From contig NW_023501038.1 of assembly GCF_014066305.1 (NCBI RefSeq), positions 682,001 to 746,000 of the forward strand: a stretch of DNA of 64,000 nucleotides, in the 5' to 3' direction. A program made the position numbers and the translations under genes. Position 1 is the stretch's first letter; each line of letters opens with the position of its first letter. Source of the stretch: Letharia columbiana. Its lineage: Eukaryota; Ascomycota; Lecanoromycetes; Lecanorales; Parmeliaceae. Shown here in pieces: positions 48,326 through 60,353 of this stretch. Below the pieces are notes generated by a model. It was not told the origin of the DNA. It worked only from the letters and a program-made list of their open reading frames with translations, and ran no database searches.

Positions 48326-50245
48326 CTATTCAAAGAGTCCTGAAAGCAATTTCCAGTCGTTGGCATTACCCTCCAGTAAGTCATTCTGTAGTGCAGAATT
48401 CTGGCCGGAGGCTGTCTGACCAAGGTCCCAGATACAGATTCCCGACCTACTCCACACCTCTGCATTCGTTTTCTGGATCAGTATCAAGCCAATATTGAAG
48501 CGATCACCATTGAACTCGGAGTTACTACCTCCCGCCAGCTTCCACCAACCTTCAGTATGCTGGTCGTCGCTGAAACGGCCTAATAGTAAGACATATATCG
48601 AAAGCCCTTGCCGGGAACAAAGGGTGACCAACTCGGCTGCCAGTCTATGCTGTCGTTCATCTCTTGGTATATCTTGTGTGGGGTCATCAGTGAAAAGAGA
48701 AAATGGCAATAGCGCCGATGAGTCCACTATAATCTGCTGTGTGCTCTTCTTCCCAGTTCTCCTCCTAGGAAGTATATGACGATCCATGGAGCTCCAGGCT
48801 TTTTGTAGAATTTCGAAGGAGCAGATCTTGCCTACGAATGAGGCACAAGAGTTGCCATCAACCTTTGTAGATGAGAATTGGCATAAACATTTGTGATCCC
48901 CTAGAAAGCTGCTAGTGACAAAATAACCTACTTTGGAAGCCAGCTCAGGAACTCTCGAGTCACTGCTGACTCTCCAGGCCTGACCTTGCCTTGCAGGCTG
49001 GGTGTGAACATGCAGTTGGCTCATAATAGGATACTTCGTAAGTAAATCCTGTCCAAGCTGTAACTCCAGCTCTGGCAAATTGGGGCTCGCCCCCTTGTCT
49101 GCGTGGGGTGCTGAGATGCCCAGTTGAAAATCAAAAACTTGCATGATTCCGTAAACGCGATCTACGGGTCTTGAAGTCAGGCGATTTGATGCCACAGTGT
49201 AAAGAGCCATAGGATTCTCCATAGCAAGCGCCGCAAGACCACTCCGCTCAATCATGTCAATGAGGCGAACTTCTGTATCTGCTGTCGGCAGACTCAGCGC
49301 CTGCTTATAAGCTACACTTCTTTTGCATACAGCATTGAGAGTCTCGCATGCCGTGAAGATATCTCTGAGCTGTGGAGAACCAACGCGAAGAGCTTCCACT
49401 TCTCCAGAGATTACATAAGCCCACTGGCTGAGGAAGGCCTCCTGTAGCGTCCACAACGAGCTGAACCATCGTTCTTCGGTTAACAAAGTAATGTTCTCTA
49501 GTGCTGAGGCTAGCCATTGCTCATCACCTTGGAGGAGCATCCGACGGGTGTTTGCCACTATTCCAAACCAGTTTTCCTTGATCTTTGCCTTGGTTTCTTT
49601 TATCATTGAGGCTAGCCATCGTTCATTTCTAAGCAGGGTCATCTTGAACTTTGATCCTGGTATGCTGGTCCATTGATCCTCAGGGCGAAGAGTCTGGGTC
49701 AGGCGCGGCTCAGCAGTTGCTGCAGCTGCAACAATGCCGTTAATCTCTCTCTCAAGGCCTTGCAGTGTGGCTTGGTTGAGCCACACGATAACATGTTTGG
49801 CCTTTCTGAAGATTCGTGCTTGGCGCCCTATCTCGACTGCCATTTGAGGATGACTGGGTATTTGATTAATACAAGCAACATCAAGCCAGACGAACTCGAT
49901 TTTAGAAGGGGTGAAGGCAGGATTGTGACCGGAGTAGGAGTTGGGCTCAATACTTCGACGGATGAGCTCCTCAAATTGCCCTACAGTGAAATGAGAGTCA
50001 TCAATCCGTGGGATCTCCCAGTCCACCCCATCGAGCTCGATGGGCTTGACATGAGGTCTCTCGAGGGCTGAGTTCAGTCGATAGCGACCCCAGGTGTACG
50101 AAATTGCGCTGTATCTGGGCTTGATGTGCCCCCCGTATACGTGGCCGGCTTGCCATTCATAGGAAGTCATGGTAGGTACGTGCAACAACCTCTGCGGCCA
50201 ATCGCCAATTGAACCGTCGGCATCAGTCTGAGACGATATCTCCAT
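48326..50245 (-). CDS. HET-domain (heterokaryon incompatibility) protein
   Basis: Single exon, 639 codons from the ATG at 50245. The frame is open to 50353, but that codon is TTG. The HET domain lies in the first half: RLLHVPTMTSYEWQAGHVYG, then KPRYSAISYTWGRYRL, FVWLDVACINQIPSHPQMAV, EIGRQARIFRKAKHVIVWLN and ERWFSSLWTLQEAFLSQWAY, the standard order of HET motifs. The second half has no recognised domain (no WD40, ankyrin or NACHT visible). HET proteins trigger cell death after non-self recognition during hyphal fusion; many genomic copies are of unknown partner. Around residue 190-260 three near-repeats of an 'RNERWLASMIK / GDEQWLASALE / TEERWFSSLW' type segment occur, suggesting internal duplication. 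It is flanked by pseudogenes and an NLR-type fragment. Confidence 0.93.
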   Translation of the reverse strand: MEISSQTDADGSIGDWPQRLLHVPTMTSYEWQAGHVYGGHIKPRYSAISYTWGRYRLNSALERPHVKPIELDGVDWEIPRIDDSHFTVGQFEELIRRSIEPNSYSGHNPAFTPSKIEFVWLDVACINQIPSHPQMAVEIGRQARIFRKAKHVIVWLNQATLQGLEREINGIVAAAATAEPRLTQTLRPEDQWTSIPGSKFKMTLLRNERWLASMIKETKAKIKENWFGIVANTRRMLLQGDEQWLASALENITLLTEERWFSSLWTLQEAFLSQWAYVISGEVEALRVGSPQLRDIFTACETLNAVCKRSVAYKQALSLPTADTEVRLIDMIERSGLAALAMENPMALYTVASNRLTSRPVDRVYGIMQVFDFQLGISAPHADKGASPNLPELELQLGQDLLTKYPIMSQLHVHTQPARQGQAWRVSSDSRVPELASKVGYFVTSSFLGDHKCLCQFSSTKVDGNSCASFVGKICSFEILQKAWSSMDRHILPRRRTGKKSTQQIIVDSSALLPFSLFTDDPTQDIPRDERQHRLAAELVTLCSRQGLSIYVLLLGRFSDDQHTEGWWKLAGGSNSEFNGDRFNIGLILIQKTNAEVWSRSGICIWDLGQTASGQNSALQNDLLEGNANDWKLLSGLFE

Positions 50246-51471
50246 GAGACTTGTATCGAGAATGCTGATTGTGTCCCCGAAGGAGAAGATTGCATCTGAT
50301 ATTTGGTCGGTGAGATTGACTGATTCTCGGGAAGAGATTACACAGCCTTTCAAACGTTCGATTCAACGAGCGGCGTGTCCCCGCGGCTCGCGAGTGTTTG
50401 GCATTGGGGACTAGGTAATGATAGGCAGATGCATGAATTCTTTGAATCGGCGCTACATAGCTCCAGTAATTAGCATTTGCTACGCGGAGAGAATGCCTGC
50501 TTAGCATTCTACGGTTCCAAGGTGGCTTGCAATTGTAGGGCGATGACTTGACGTCTGACTCAGCTCCACCATCATTGGTCAGAGGCTTCGCCTAGCGGGA
50601 AAGGGGTTAGATCCAATCCTCAGCAAGATGAAGATAATCTTAGGTACCTCAGTTTTCCTCGTAAGTACCAACCTCCTTCCGTCCTATTTGAGTGCTTATG
50701 TGCTTTTGCTCATCAGTCACAACTAACTATTATTCGAAGAAAGATCAATACGCATACCCATGGTCAACATGTGTAACCCATGACCTTAGCATGTAGTCCA
50801 TCCATGATTATGGCTGCAGAGTCTACTTGGTATCGATGATGAGGGAGTGGTAGTAATTTTCATGTCAAAGAAGCTAGAGTTGGCGACATACTGCTTGCCT
50901 CCATGAACCACTCTGACAGCAATTTGCGGGGCTTTTCTTGACTTTTCGAGTTCGTGAGCTTGGGCTTCAAAAAGAGATGGATGAGAGTAAAAGCAATCAT
51001 CACAAGGACAGGCAGTGACAGGGTGCCGTTAGTTGTCGGACTTGGCATTATTCACGTAACCCTTCAGGCGGAGCACTATTCGAGATCTTGGCGTGCAGCA
51101 CTTTTAGTGCTGACCTCCGTAAGCTTTGCATGAGGCTTTCGCGTCCTTGATGCATGTGGTAGGCTGTGCTGCTGCACCAACCCTTGCTCTTACCCCGACG
51201 CCTCATGTTTGCGCGCATCGAGGAACAGCTCCCTTTTGAAAAGTCCAGAAAGCCCCGCATCGTTCGTTTTACAGTTCTCAAATGCCGGTAGCAGGACTTT
51301 GATCAATATTGCCAACATCAACTGGCCGGGCGTTGTTGCCCTTAGTCCTGTGGATATCATATTTTTGTATATTAAAGCTGATTTTGTATCTGAATGCCTT
51401 CCCTCTTTTCAAGTCTTTTTCTAGATTGCAATTGCCTTCAGATCCTAGAAAATTGGAACCTTTGATTCAGC
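50246..51471. other. Intergenic, no gene recognised
   Basis: Divergent promoter region between the HET gene and the NLR-type fragment. A 62-codon minus-strand frame at 50860-51048 has one hydrophobic segment (LSLPVLVMIAFTLIHLFL), too little to call a gene. Confidence 0.45.
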
Positions 51472-52024: not shown

Positions 52025-52691
52025 CAATTGATTGCATAGTACGAAGCCGTCGGAGCTTTCCTCATCTCTTCGCACTCTTGTCTAAAACAAGCGAGCTATT
52101 AGTATCTACCACAGCATTAACATTTCGAGAGCATGAGACACATTACGCTCAATTCATGAATGACCACGGGATTGCCTCATCCAACTCCAGTGGATACTAG
52201 TAGATGGCCTCGTGCACACATGAATGAGAGGTGAAAACGTGATATTCAGGCCTTCGTATTCCCTCGAGACACGTCCTATCTTGCTGAATCATTGAGGCGC
52301 GCCTGATCGTCGCATTTGCAACAGCAAGTATCATCTAACGTCCATATAGATGTTGGGTGCTTTTTTTGTATACACACAGGAAATGAAAGAACACTTACAG
52401 AAGGTAGAGAGCAGAGAAGGCGGTTATAGACTATGATGAACATTCTAACCAATCATGTTAAGAATCAAAACATAGCAGCAGCGAAGACATTCCTCTGTGA
52501 TTATGTAAGCAAAAGGACACTCGATAACATTTGTAGGTTGCAACCCTACAAGATTGATGAAGTGATCCAAAATCCCAAATCGACTGACTGTTATTGGCGA
52601 GGGAATGCTTGAATCTCGAGATATTGATGTCACCCATATTATAATGTGTGGTATATATTCAAATAAGAAATTTCTGCATAATCAACATCCT
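52025..52691. other. Intergenic, no gene recognised
   Basis: AT-rich spacer between the NLR-type fragment and the tRNA gene. No gene is seen. Confidence 0.5.
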
Positions 52692-52842
52692 GGACAGATG
52701 GCCGAGTGTATGTTGTTTCGCAATGGAATTAATTGTGATCAAAGACTAACAATTCCCCAGTGGTTATGGCGCCAGGTTAAGGTTACCTTGACATTATATC
52801 CTGGTCACGTAAGTGGCGAGGGTTCGAATCCCTCTCTGTTCA
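52692..52842 (+). tRNA. tRNA-Leu(AAG) with two introns, one of spliceosomal type in the D loop
   Basis: A class II tRNA can be folded completely once two insertions are removed. Acceptor: ggacaga (52692-52698) with tctgttc (52835-52841) and discriminator A (52842). D stem: gccg with tggc (52767-52770). Anticodon stem: ccagg (52772-52776) with cctgg (52800-52804). Anticodon: AAG (52779-52781). Variable arm: cac-gtaa-gtg. T arm: gaggg-ttcgaat-ccctc (52818-52834). The canonical intron is 52783-52798, 16 nt after position 37; it contains cctt, complementary to the anticodon side. The second insertion, 52708-52760 (53 nt), sits between D-loop positions 16 and 17. Excised exactly, it leaves A14-G15-T-T-G18-G19 and a box A that matches TRGCNNAGYNGG fully. 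The mature tRNA is 82 nt, usual for Leu. Confidence 0.85.
52708..52760 (+). other. Spliceosomal-type intron inside the tRNA-Leu gene
   Basis: 53 bases starting gtatgt, with gactaaca ending about 11 bases before a terminal ccccag. These are the 5' splice site, branch point and 3' splice site consensus of fungal U2-type introns, the same as in the protein genes of this window. Inner complementary segments (aattgt/acaatt, ggaatt/aattcc) allow alternative hairpins. It splits box A between its ninth and tenth base. Confidence 0.75.
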
Positions 52843-54770
<1,928 letters not shown>

Positions 54771-57395: not shown

Positions 57396-60353
57396 TCACT
57401 CTTCTTCACTCTCGGAGCTCTCGTCTTCTCCACTGCTCTCCTGACCTGCCACTGGGTCGTCATCTGCATCGAAGGGTAAGCATGGAGTCACGTATAGCCA
57501 TCCCGAGAAGAGTAACTTACAGCCGGGAGCAGAGCCTCCCTTCTGGAATGCAGACAGACCGCTCTGGACTTGTGCAATCCTAGCTTCTTGCTCAGTCTTG
57601 CTCATGGGCTTGTTCTTTTTCCGTGTCGGTGCTGCGCTAGATGCTGCCGGAGCCGGTCGAGCGGGAGCGTCGTCGGAACGGGGTGCATGCTTTCGTACAA
57701 AGACAAGAAGTTTGTGGAGAACTTCGTCGGATAGCTCGTCAATGTCAAGCTCAAGTTCATCGTCCTGCACGCCCTGCTTTTGATTTAGATTAGTGTCTAT
57801 TTCATATTCTAAGATGGCTTCGTTGGATAGATATAAAAAAAATCTCTTGTCTGGATTAAGTCTCACCTGTAGATTTGGCATGTTGTCCCGGATGATCCTG
57901 AGCGCAGTCGCCATTTTGGTTTCGGACAAGCTGTTGATGCGATTCGAAATATCTTGCTTCTGCTCATAGGTTACATATGGCGTCTTCTCCTTTTTGGCTG
58001 GCTTTGAAACCGCTTTTTTCTCCGCTCTGGCGGGCGCAGCAGTTTTTTTCGTGTCTTTGCGGACAGGCTTGGCTCCTTTTGTGGCCTTCTTGCTAGACAC
58101 TGGAGGTGACTTCTTTTTTTGTGTGATTAACTCGACCTGCCTCGACATCGCGGCAATTTGCTGCTGTAGTTTCGAAAGCTGAGTCTGCTCTTCCTCCTCT
58201 TCATCCTCCTCCTCCTCTTCTTCATCGCTGTCTTCGGGCTCAGAGCTACCAGCGGATTGAGGACCAGAGCCGGGCGTATTCGCCTCAATCCAGTCCCGCT
58301 TCTTGGCCCATTCACTATCGAATACGGCTTCGAATTGATGCCCGGTATGGTTGATAGGGTCACTTTGGGGGTTGAAGCGATAGCAGTTTTGGAACACCTG
58401 ACGAGCGTCGGCCTCGAACTCCTTGGCATTTTCATACTCGCCCTGATCCAGCTTCAACTTCATACTACCAAAATCCATGGGCTTCTTGATGATGCTATGA
58501 TAGGTTGGGATGTTCAGGGCAACGGGGTCGACTGCAGTCATGAAAGGCCATGAGAGGTGATTGTACTTCGGCTTCGAAAGCTCGGTCAAAACCTTTTCAC
58601 AGAACTTCAACTCCCATTGGTACTTCTTCTTTTTTGGCTTCTGGTTTGCGTAGGGTAGATCCCGTGGTGCAGGTGGATGGATCTCTCGCTTTGGTCGACC
58701 GTCTCCGAAAGTTGAATCGCGACGAATCAGAGGTACGCCTTGAGGATTCAAAGCGAATGTTTGCGGAGAGCCTGTCGATACAGGTGATCGTGCAGGGCCC
58801 GGCAACGAAGATCGTGATTCTCGTCGAGGCGGTGCCACCTTGGCTGCTGGCGGTATAATTGCCTTCTTCTTTCTGTCGGCCGGACTTGGCTCCACGACAT
58901 CAGGTCCCGGTATTTTTGACATGTTCTTGTCGAAGGAGGCTTTCATCTCATTCGCGAACTTCGTGAAAGTGCTCTCACGGCCATTGAAGGCCTCGCAGTT
59001 CTGTACTATCTGATTGAAATCCGCTGTGAACGCGTCAACCGTAGCATACTTGTTTTCCTTCAGATTCTCTTCCAGGGTTCTCAAATCCATAGGTTTTCTG
59101 ATGATATTTGGGTAGCTTGGGATGTTCAATACCAAATAGTCGACCGGCTGTCTGAAGGCGGTAGATGACTGAATACGCTTGACGTTTTGGATAGTCCTCA
59201 TACAGTGCTTGTGCTGGAGTTGGGTCATTGGAGGTGCTGATGTTTGGGGCGCATCTGTATGCGTGCCATTGACCTGCGTATTGATCGCTGGCCGCTCAGG
59301 AACCTTGAAATCCGCGGTAGCATCCTGTTCAGTCTTTGAGCGCTTCGCCGCTGGTCCATCTTCTAGGTCATCGCCTTCCCGCTCCCTGGCCACTTTCGCG
59401 GGAGAAGATGGCACGTCCTGCATGACCTGGTCCTTTGACTGACTCTCTGTCTCCGTCACTGGTGATGACTTCTCTGCTGGAAGAGCCGGCGACGGCGCCG
59501 GATCTATGGGTGCCTCAGTTGATGCACCTTCGGGTACAGGGACTGGTGGATGGTGCGGGAGGTTTGTAGTAGGTATTGAGGCAAACTCTTTTGAAGGCTG
59601 CAGAGCAGAAGCGTTGTCCTCGCTGAGCGATGGAGCTACTGCAGGCTCCGGAGACATTGTGGCACTCATCTGAGGCTGTTGAAAGATTAAGGCCGCAGTA
59701 GAGTCTGTCTGTGGTGGTAGCTCTGAATTCACTGGGATCGGATCCGATGCGCCGGCAACCAATCCGTTGGCTAAATCGGGATCATTGATGAGATGTTGCT
59801 GCAATTTTTGCTCCTTGATCTCGGCGGTCTGCTCCTGACTTACAGGCTGAGTTTCTTCACGAAGATCAGAAGTTGGCTGCTGAACAAGCGCTGATGAAGT
59901 TTCAACTGGGGTGGCGTCTAGCTTTATTGAAGAGTGATCGACAATATCATCGGGCGCAGACTGACTCGATGAGAATAGTAGGCTGTCCCCAGTCTCGCCA
60001 GAATTCGGAAGACTTGAGCTTGGCTCAAGGGATGCCTGAGTGTCATTCAAGTGAATATCTGCGTGATCAATACCATTGGTCATAGATGATGTAAAGTCGT
60101 GCGCACTTATTTGCGCGTTTGCGTCGTGAGCTGAGGTGTTCAAGGAGGTGGAGGAGTTCAGTGATGAGTCTTTGGGGTGGTGAACATTTTGTAATCTATA
60201 AACACAAGTACCTTATCAGCAACTCACTGTAGACAACAAGATGTGCATGAGTGAGTTGACTCACGCATGATCGTGTGTACCAAAATCCATCTCGTCCTGC
60301 TCAAGGCCGAACTTGCCCTCGAATGCGCCGCGCTCCGGCTCCGATAACGCCAT
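57396..60353 (-). CDS. BDF1: BET-family double bromodomain protein, BDF1-like
   Basis: Exons 60353-60265, 60195-57867, 57773-57521 and 57463-57396, 912 codons. The first third is acidic, Ser/Pro/Gln-rich and disordered, with a basic nuclear-signal-like AAKRSK. Bromodomain 1 has HCMRTIQNVKRIQSSTAFRQ, PVDYLVLNIPSYPNIIRKPM and the acetyl-lysine Asn in VQNCEAFNG. Bromodomain 2 has KFCEKVLTELSKPKYNHLSW, DPVALNIPTYHSIIKKPMDF and FQNCYRFN. A coiled, acidic Glu-rich linker follows. The NET/ET domain has TYEQKQDISNRINSLSETKM, MPNLQGVQDDELELDIDELS and LHKLLVFVRKHAP. The C-terminus is an acidic Ser/Glu tail. BDF1-type proteins bind acetylated histone H4 and act with TFIID and SWR1. The intron 57774-57866 interrupts the NET domain; removing it restores the family sequence. 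Confidence 0.95.

Follow-up and report, generated by a model that had tools for sequence, protein, structure and literature searches.

To our knowledge, the introns of tRNA genes fall into two groups by mechanism: some are cut out by the tRNA splicing endonuclease, others splice themselves. Group I introns occur in organellar and bacterial tRNA genes, including tRNA-Leu; they share the use of tRNA genes as hosts with the introns described here, but they are self-splicing and much longer than the approximately 54 nt seen in the present set. Spliceosomal introns reportedly interrupt the fungal genes for U6 snRNA and U3 snoRNA, and they are also said to occur in ascomycete rDNA, lichen fungi included. 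Like those of U6 and U3, the introns reported here appear to be ordinary spliceosomal ones in small structured RNAs, and U6 is interrupted in this genome too; the difference is that here the hosts are tRNAs, many genes are affected and a single gene may hold up to four introns. The rDNA introns are likewise spliceosomal, reside in structural RNA genes and come from the same fungal group, but their host is rRNA rather than tRNA. According to PMC5832005, frequent interruption by an intron is known to date for no small structured RNAs other than U3 and U6, and PMC6652019 describes rDNA introns as unusually numerous in lichen fungi.

According to PMC3978253, nuclear tRNA introns lie exclusively at 37/38, and the exceptions in algae are described as bulge-helix-bulge mediated. 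Introns of this canonical type are also present in 12 of the 18 interrupted genes that we report, whereas the set of interest lies outside 37/38, measures 49-58 nt (83 nt in one case), has GT/GC-AG ends and carries a branch-like motif. PMC3978253 also states that 34 of the 43 nuclear tRNA genes of Cyanidioschyzon merolae are disrupted, that a standard finder undercounted them and that a TATA-like sequence lies upstream. The present genome resembles C. merolae in its non-canonical intron sites, its many disrupted genes, the undercount and the upstream TATA-like sequence, but the introns of C. merolae are presented there as bulge-helix-bulge mediated (PMC3978253) and those described here bear spliceosomal signals. 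Non-canonical sites are likewise found in the Guillardia theta nucleomorph, many of whose introns are said to have no defined motif (PMC3978253), unlike the present ones with their spliceosomal signals. A search of one open-access library, judged by the titles and abstract openings among the matches listed, found no precedent for spliceosomal introns in nuclear tRNA genes, and PMC6461891 gave nothing on tRNA introns. The novelty is in the host, each intron being, to judge from its letters, of an ordinary spliceosomal type.

The tRNA-Leu(AAG) gene of the window

The window, that is, the whole 64-kb stretch of DNA that was analysed, lies on contig C3. The first-pass annotation had described in it a class II tRNA-Leu(AAG) gene whose D loop is interrupted by an insertion of spliceosomal appearance. 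On rechecking, the coordinates of the gene and of the insertion hold, as does the position of the latter within the tRNA (Table 1); its start, its internal GACTAAC and its end have a spliceosomal look, as stated there, and an ordinary anticodon intron does coexist with it. Once both are removed, all the stems pair as claimed (7/7 in the acceptor, 4/4 in the D stem and 5/5 in each of the anticodon and T stems), and the resulting cloverleaf, with a Leu anticodon and a class II variable region of 13 nt, confirms the identity of the gene as a nuclear tRNA-Leu. The 16-nt intron occupies the canonical site, and the D-loop insertion does not. The predicted Pol III signals, boxes A and B and a T5 run, are all present. 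The statement that the insertion splits box A needs qualification: the box is indeed interrupted, but the first bases of the intron replace its end, and seven of the eight conserved letters are kept. The TATA-like box upstream has AT-rich surroundings and is only suggestive as a promoter signal.

Table 1. Features of the window gene (window positions) and sites of non-canonical introns in the interrupted tRNA genes found (loci)
Feature	Position or locus	Strand	Detail
tRNA-Leu(AAG) gene, class II	52692-52842	+	direct reading of the sequence
Exon 1 (positions 1-16)	52692..52707	+	tRNA fold
Spliceosomal-type intron, 53 nt, D loop	52708..52760	+	positions 16/17; GTATGT...GACTAAC...CCCCAG
CTAAC, branch-site-like	52746..52750	+	presumed branch A = 52749; branch role inferred
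Exon 2 overall	52761-52842	+	harbours the 16-nt anticodon intron
Exon 2, first part	52761..52782	+	D-loop remainder, D stem, anticodon stem and loop to position 37
Anticodon AAG	52779-52781	+	
Canonical anticodon-loop intron, 16 nt	52783..52798	+	37/38; TTACCTTGACATTATA; not GT..AG
Exon 2, remainder	52799..52842	+	base 38, anticodon stem 3' strand, class II variable region, T arm, acceptor 3' strand, discriminator A
Box A as in DNA	52699..52709	+	TGGCCGAGTGT; final two letters from intron; 7/8 conserved letters
Box B	52821..52831	+	GGTTCGAATCC; intact, 8/8
TATA-like box	52652..52659	+	TATATATT; 40 nt 5' of tRNA start; 7/8 letters of TATAWAWA
TTTTT, possible Pol III terminator	52876..52880	+	33 nt past tRNA 3' end
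Leu-AAG	window		intron 16/17
Thr-AGT	L033		intron 43/variable loop
Ser-AGA	L041		intron in variable arm
Arg-TCG	L044		intron 61/62
Leu-TAA	L045		intron 60/61
Trp-CCA	L046		intron 18/19
Asn-GTT	L071		introns 16/17, 28/29, variable loop
Gln-CTG	L085		introns 10/11, 15/16
Arg-CCT	L093		intron 51/52
Ser-GCT	L095		intron in variable arm
Lys-CTT	L096		introns 10/11, 17/18, 27/28, variable loop
Ser-CGA	L100/L101		intron 52/53
Lys-TTT	L102		intron 16/17
Tyr-GTA	L103		intron 32/33
Thr-CGT	L104		intron 19/20
Arg-CCG	L108		intron 18/19
Met-CAT	L112		intron 22/23
Ile-AAT	L114		introns 18/19, variable loop

It had been anticipated that standard finders would miss this gene, and they do. ARAGORN reported no tRNA in the window, even with introns of up to 100 nt allowed, nor in the intact 300-nt region around the gene; the score of the intact gene with RF00005 is 17.4 bits, where 29 would be needed to pass the cut-off, and no Rfam family exceeded its cut-off within the window. 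When the insertion was taken out of the 300-nt region, ARAGORN did find a tRNA, which it labelled Ile(TAT) because it placed the 16-nt intron four bases further upstream. The spliced gene scored 32.9, compared with 29.2 for the best of 20 sequences with a shuffled interior. With the boundaries chosen by structure only, 17 removals tied at the top; two of them are GT..AG, and one of these is the insertion as given in Table 1. A BLAST search of the whole assembly with the spliced gene returned a single match, its own exon 2, exon 1 (16 nt) being too short to be visible to BLAST.

Around the gene, a putative helicase gene with at least two short introns begins at window position 53226 on the + strand, approximately 380 nt downstream of the tRNA gene; from its translation we take it to be an RVB1-like helicase. 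On the - strand, window positions 57396-60212 encode a bromodomain protein with matches of up to 93%; among the matches that carry an organism name, Alectoria sarmentosa (82%) leads, followed by Puttea exsequens (58%), Psora testacea (56%) and Lobaria immixta (53%). From these matches the DNA probably belongs to a lichen-forming member of the Lecanoromycetes close to Parmeliaceae. Also on the - strand, positions 48326-50362 hold an open frame of 678 aa, presumably, by its motif, a heterokaryon-incompatibility (HET) domain protein.

Interrupted tRNA genes across the genome

The assembly searched comprises 52.2 Mb in 161 contigs. RF00005 gave 62 matches in it, from 63 scored of 1723 candidates, and 40 of the 62 are on contigs C94 and C110, which are presumed to be mitochondrial. 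The remaining 22 consist of 13 without a non-canonical intron, five interrupted genes and four organelle-like or doubtful matches. This is a low number of tRNA genes for a fungus, so hidden genes were sought with box-B patterns and BLAST, and the loci were then read individually. The pattern of a B box plus poly-A had 444 matches against 350 for its reversed form, with reading by eye among the matches listed, and a broader box B with TTTTT had 165 against 30 in the control, with loci again taken among the matches listed; narrower patterns, listed completely, gave 45 vs 21, 31 vs 23 and 12 vs 2 matches. BLAST with fungal tRNA sequences led to three places only. Pattern matches provided 34 loci, namely 11 interrupted tRNAs, four with a canonical intron only and 19 that are either not tRNAs or ambiguous. 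Altogether, non-canonical introns are present at 19 loci of the inventory and absent from 18; the inventory is a lower bound, since for two patterns the loci come from among the matches listed and the patterns need a near-intact box B. Seventeen of the 18 loci without such introns fold at 31 or above on the same scale, and Arg-TCT reaches 26.5.

Outside 37/38 we count 25 introns in 18 distinct tRNA genes (19 loci, as Ser-CGA is present twice), spread over 17 contigs, several of them 0.4-2.2 Mb in length. Their sites cover the D arm, the anticodon arm, the variable region and the T arm; tRNA-Lys(CTT) has four introns, and exons can be as small as 5 nt (Gln-CTG) or 7 nt (Lys-CTT). Organelle-like matches aside, nuclear tRNAs for Phe, Val, Asp and Cys did not turn up in the searches of the assembly, and neither did a recognisable gene for initiator Met.

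Several other elements were seen along the way. The tRNA-Arg(TCT) gene (L047, C16:65350-65429) has no non-canonical intron and a poor D stem (1/4 pairs). The locus L106 (C5:543250-543690), excluded from every count, has good acceptor, D and T arms and an unconvincing anticodon arm, and is perhaps a heavily interrupted tRNA. Immediately 5' of an uninterrupted tRNA-His (C25:320324), the apparent 5' half of another tRNA adjoins it at L050, where no 3' half is seen. A repeated tRNA-like element, in which box B is followed by GGCGCTGGTACAATGGTG and a T run, is probably a SINE; it occurs at C2:231246-231292, at C1:449807 (L064) and at many more places. A second element of a few hundred nt, with two copies (L087 at C3:1431083 and L088 at C1:334706) and a tRNA-like head (GGCCTAGTGGTTTACACTGG...GGTTCGAGG), is possibly another. 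On C94 (109691 bases) the same tRNA cluster appears twice, approximately 90.5 kb apart, as if the contig had been assembled past the circle.

BLAST of all 18 spliced sequences against the whole assembly returned 36 matches, which are the genes' own exons, relatives and one Thr piece. The relatives (82-86%) are Ser-TGA on C2 and two Leu places on C4. Thus the search for the same tRNA with and without its insertion, which the first-pass annotation had proposed, found no uninterrupted copy, and none was found for any of the other genes either; the interrupted Asn gene, with its short exons, is itself invisible to this search, and an uninterrupted 83-nt copy should show. Moreover, among the genes found, the Trp, Lys, Asn, Tyr and Thr tRNAs have interrupted genes only. 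There are two possible exceptions, neither of them a sound gene: a degenerate, AT-rich, organelle-like match with the anticodon TTT at C2:407460, and the Thr piece on C50. The latter (L124, C50:171900-171938, 39 nt) is a 3' part resembling Thr-AGT with no recognisable D arm adjoining, and is either a pseudogene or another interrupted gene. The two Ser-CGA copies are identical in gene and intron over 153 nt, and their upstream 250 nt show seven mismatches and 68 gap columns (34 at the alignment end); such identity beside a diverged flank would fit constraint or gene conversion.

These observations bear on whether the interrupted genes are alive. They could have been killed by intron invasion, with other genes supplying the tRNAs: wobble makes some isoacceptors dispensable, Leu-AAG possibly among them beside Leu-TAG and Leu-CAG, and a degraded Leu copy at C4:545024 indicates that pseudogenes exist. 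Nevertheless, the searches revealed no uninterrupted version of any of the 18 genes, five amino acids have no other sound gene among those found, and decay would not preserve up to four introns in a gene with their signals intact. After intron removal, the acceptor is 7/7 and the T stem 5/5 in 18/18 genes, the intact acceptors being partly by choice, as a gene was called only when its acceptor stem paired. The window gene does not look like a tRNA pseudogene either, with its stems intact. We therefore regard the death of these genes as quite improbable. The annotation had left the choice between a need for the spliceosome and an invasion fatal to the gene; with such introns in 17 other tRNA genes, the former appears to be favoured, because the genome search turned up no uninterrupted counterpart for any of these 18 genes and several are the sole gene found for their amino acid.

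Splice signals and controls

The 25 introns have the ends GT-AG (24) or GC-AG (one, in Gln-CTG), as our solver required, and in all of them a motif resembling CTAAC precedes the 3' end, the least convincing cases being CTTAT in Leu-TAA and TTAAT in Thr-CGT, although this motif and the 5' site are partly selected, as the solver rewarded splice signals other than the ends. With the same reservation, pooling them with two introns from U6-like RNA gives G1 in 27/27, T2 in 26/27, G5 in 24/27, T6 in 21/27 and AG in 27/27. Twenty-four measure 49-58 nt and one 83 nt (mean 54.2), a narrow range that was not imposed, since the solver allowed 36-140 nt. For comparison, two introns of a single protein gene, the RVB1-like one, were read by eye; they measure 72 and 50 nt and read GTATGT...GCTAATC...CAG and GTTCGT...GCTGATC...TAG, respectively. 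The canonical 37/38 introns in 12 of the 18 genes range from 8 to 30 nt, none with GT..AG ends; two distinct classes of intron therefore coexist in one precursor.

To judge the ends from structure only, with no motif, the 14 genes with a single intron were used. GT..AG was among the best removals in 12 of them, and the next commonest end pairs reached 6/14; in Tyr-GTA and Thr-CGT a removal other than GT..AG scored one point above it. Tied removals ranged from 3 to 357 per gene, and the test is strong for Leu-TAA (3), Arg-TCG (4) and Ser-CGA (9) and weak for Ser-AGA (357) and Ser-GCT (184). In Ser-AGA, removal of the intron rebuilds the variable-arm hairpin CCG-TTCG-CGG. Shuffles that kept dinucleotides, with the first nine and last 25 bases fixed, covered all 18 genes, with five shuffles for Asn, five for Lys-CTT and 20 for every other gene; in 0/330 cases was the score within one point of that of the real sequence. 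This control is easy for the genes with T-arm introns because shuffling breaks that arm too. ARAGORN recognised a tRNA in each of the 18 spliced sequences and gave 15 of them the expected anticodon; it misread the anticodon of Leu-AAG, Asn-GTT and Ile-AAT because it shifted the canonical intron. In the unspliced sequences it found nothing in nine genes and something in nine, and for Thr-AGT, Ser-AGA, Gln-CTG, Ser-GCT and Met-CAT it gave the correct anticodon with one intron of 36-104 nt placed at the anticodon. The shuffles and the test of ends led us to reject a chance origin of the tRNA-like halves. With the pattern recurring on 17 contigs and every spliced form passing ARAGORN, an artefact of any kind, be it chance halves, misassembly or contamination, is scarcely credible.

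A different enzyme could in principle remove the insertions. C. merolae has nuclear tRNA genes with introns at various non-canonical positions (PMC3978253), and the present ones might be of the same bulge-helix-bulge type, for which the tRNA splicing endonuclease does the cutting, as it does in Cyanidioschyzon or archaea. Judged from the splice signals only, this is very improbable: 25/25 introns have spliceosomal ends and branch-like motifs and 24 fall in the narrow size range, whereas the 12 canonical introns lack such signals.

The origin of the introns was approached through their mutual similarity. The best pair among the 27 scored 26, compared with maxima of 18-29 in 20 shuffled sets, and an introner-type family, mobile and mutually similar, was rejected. 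The dissimilarity argues against a single mobile family of recent date; the introns may instead have arisen by reverse splicing or through separate, older gains.

Transcription, processing and significance

A T5 run lies within 60 nt downstream of all 37 genes considered (19 interrupted ones including U6, and 18 others), and in the unspliced DNA box B is 8/8 in 17 of the 18 interrupted tRNA genes, although the conservation of both is partly ascertainment, as many genes were found through box B and TTTTT patterns. Box A keeps at least seven of eight letters in 17/18 genes and is imperfect in the DNA of 5/18, and the introns often lend it their first G. This does not mean that insertion sites were selected to spare boxes A and B: 5222 of 20000 random placements were as good (5546 of 20000 with the preceding base kept), which is not significant. 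TATA-like boxes (at least 7/8 letters) occur within 60 nt upstream, from -27 to -58, in 23/37 genes (13/19 interrupted, 10/18 others) and in 44 of 1114 control windows, 876 of which come from the 64-kb window; the signal is suggestive only, because the upstream DNA is AT-rich.

U6 is an essential RNA made by Pol III. RF00026 gave five matches in the genome, none above the cut-off (best 41.2 bits vs 44), and the top two lie side by side on C17. There, at approximately 919160-919380 (L120, L121), removal of two GT-AG introns, 53 and 66 nt long, joins the exons into a U6-like RNA; the first intron lies inside ACAG|AGA. No uninterrupted U6 was found in the RF00026 search. By contrast, all five 5S rRNA matches are full length (120/120 model positions), so that not every kind of Pol III gene is affected and a general invasion of these genes is unsupported.

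Most genes couple spliceosomal splicing to Pol II, and the imperfect box A of five genes would agree with spliceosomal splicing of Pol II rather than Pol III transcripts. What speaks for Pol III is that U6 has the same architecture, together with the TATA-like boxes, confounded as they are by AT-rich DNA, and the box B and T5 runs, partly a product of ascertainment. Transcription by Pol II is in our view unlikely.

The reading that we prefer, at a probability of about 0.86, draws on the anatomy of the gene, its recurrence, the splice signals, the restored structures, the lack of uninterrupted copies among those found and the introns of U6. The window would hold a working, single-copy tRNA-Leu(AAG) gene, whose Pol III transcript contains two kinds of intron and would need both the spliceosome and the tRNA endonuclease to yield a functional product, and at least 17 other genes would be alike. 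RNA polymerase III would transcribe the interrupted gene, the spliceosome would remove the 53-nt D-loop intron by means of its GU 5' site, CUAAC branch site and AG 3' site, and the tRNA splicing endonuclease and ligase would remove the 16-nt anticodon intron. The spliceosome would probably act in the nucleus and before the endonuclease, since neither the D arm nor the folded body that the latter recognises forms until the D loop has been joined; folding, removal of the 37/38 intron and normal end processing would follow. Where a gene has several introns, their removal would be stepwise, since some inner exons are 5-10 nt long, and the 5- and 7-nt exons of Gln-CTG and Lys-CTT are demanding for a spliceosome. 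It also seems likely, though with less assurance, that the spliceosome is an obligate tRNA-processing enzyme in this fungal lineage: the cytosolic Trp, Lys, Asn, Tyr and Thr tRNAs would be obtained only through one to four spliceosomal intron removals from Pol III transcripts, many of which would lose a further intron to the tRNA endonuclease, and U6, the spliceosome's own catalytic RNA, would itself be spliced.

Subject to confirmation at the RNA level, spliceosomal introns in tRNAs would add a new class both to the introns of tRNAs and to the substrates of the spliceosome. If this is true, a third kind of tRNA intron exists, and the spliceosome handles Pol III transcripts with exons down to 5 nt. 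It would help to explain low tRNA counts such as the 22 RF00005 matches outside the two presumed mitochondrial contigs, and it would make testable how introns enter structured RNA genes and how one substrate is shared between tRNA splicing and mRNA splicing. If the spliceosome is indeed obligate for these tRNAs, translation and splicing would be mutually dependent at the level of tRNA supply.
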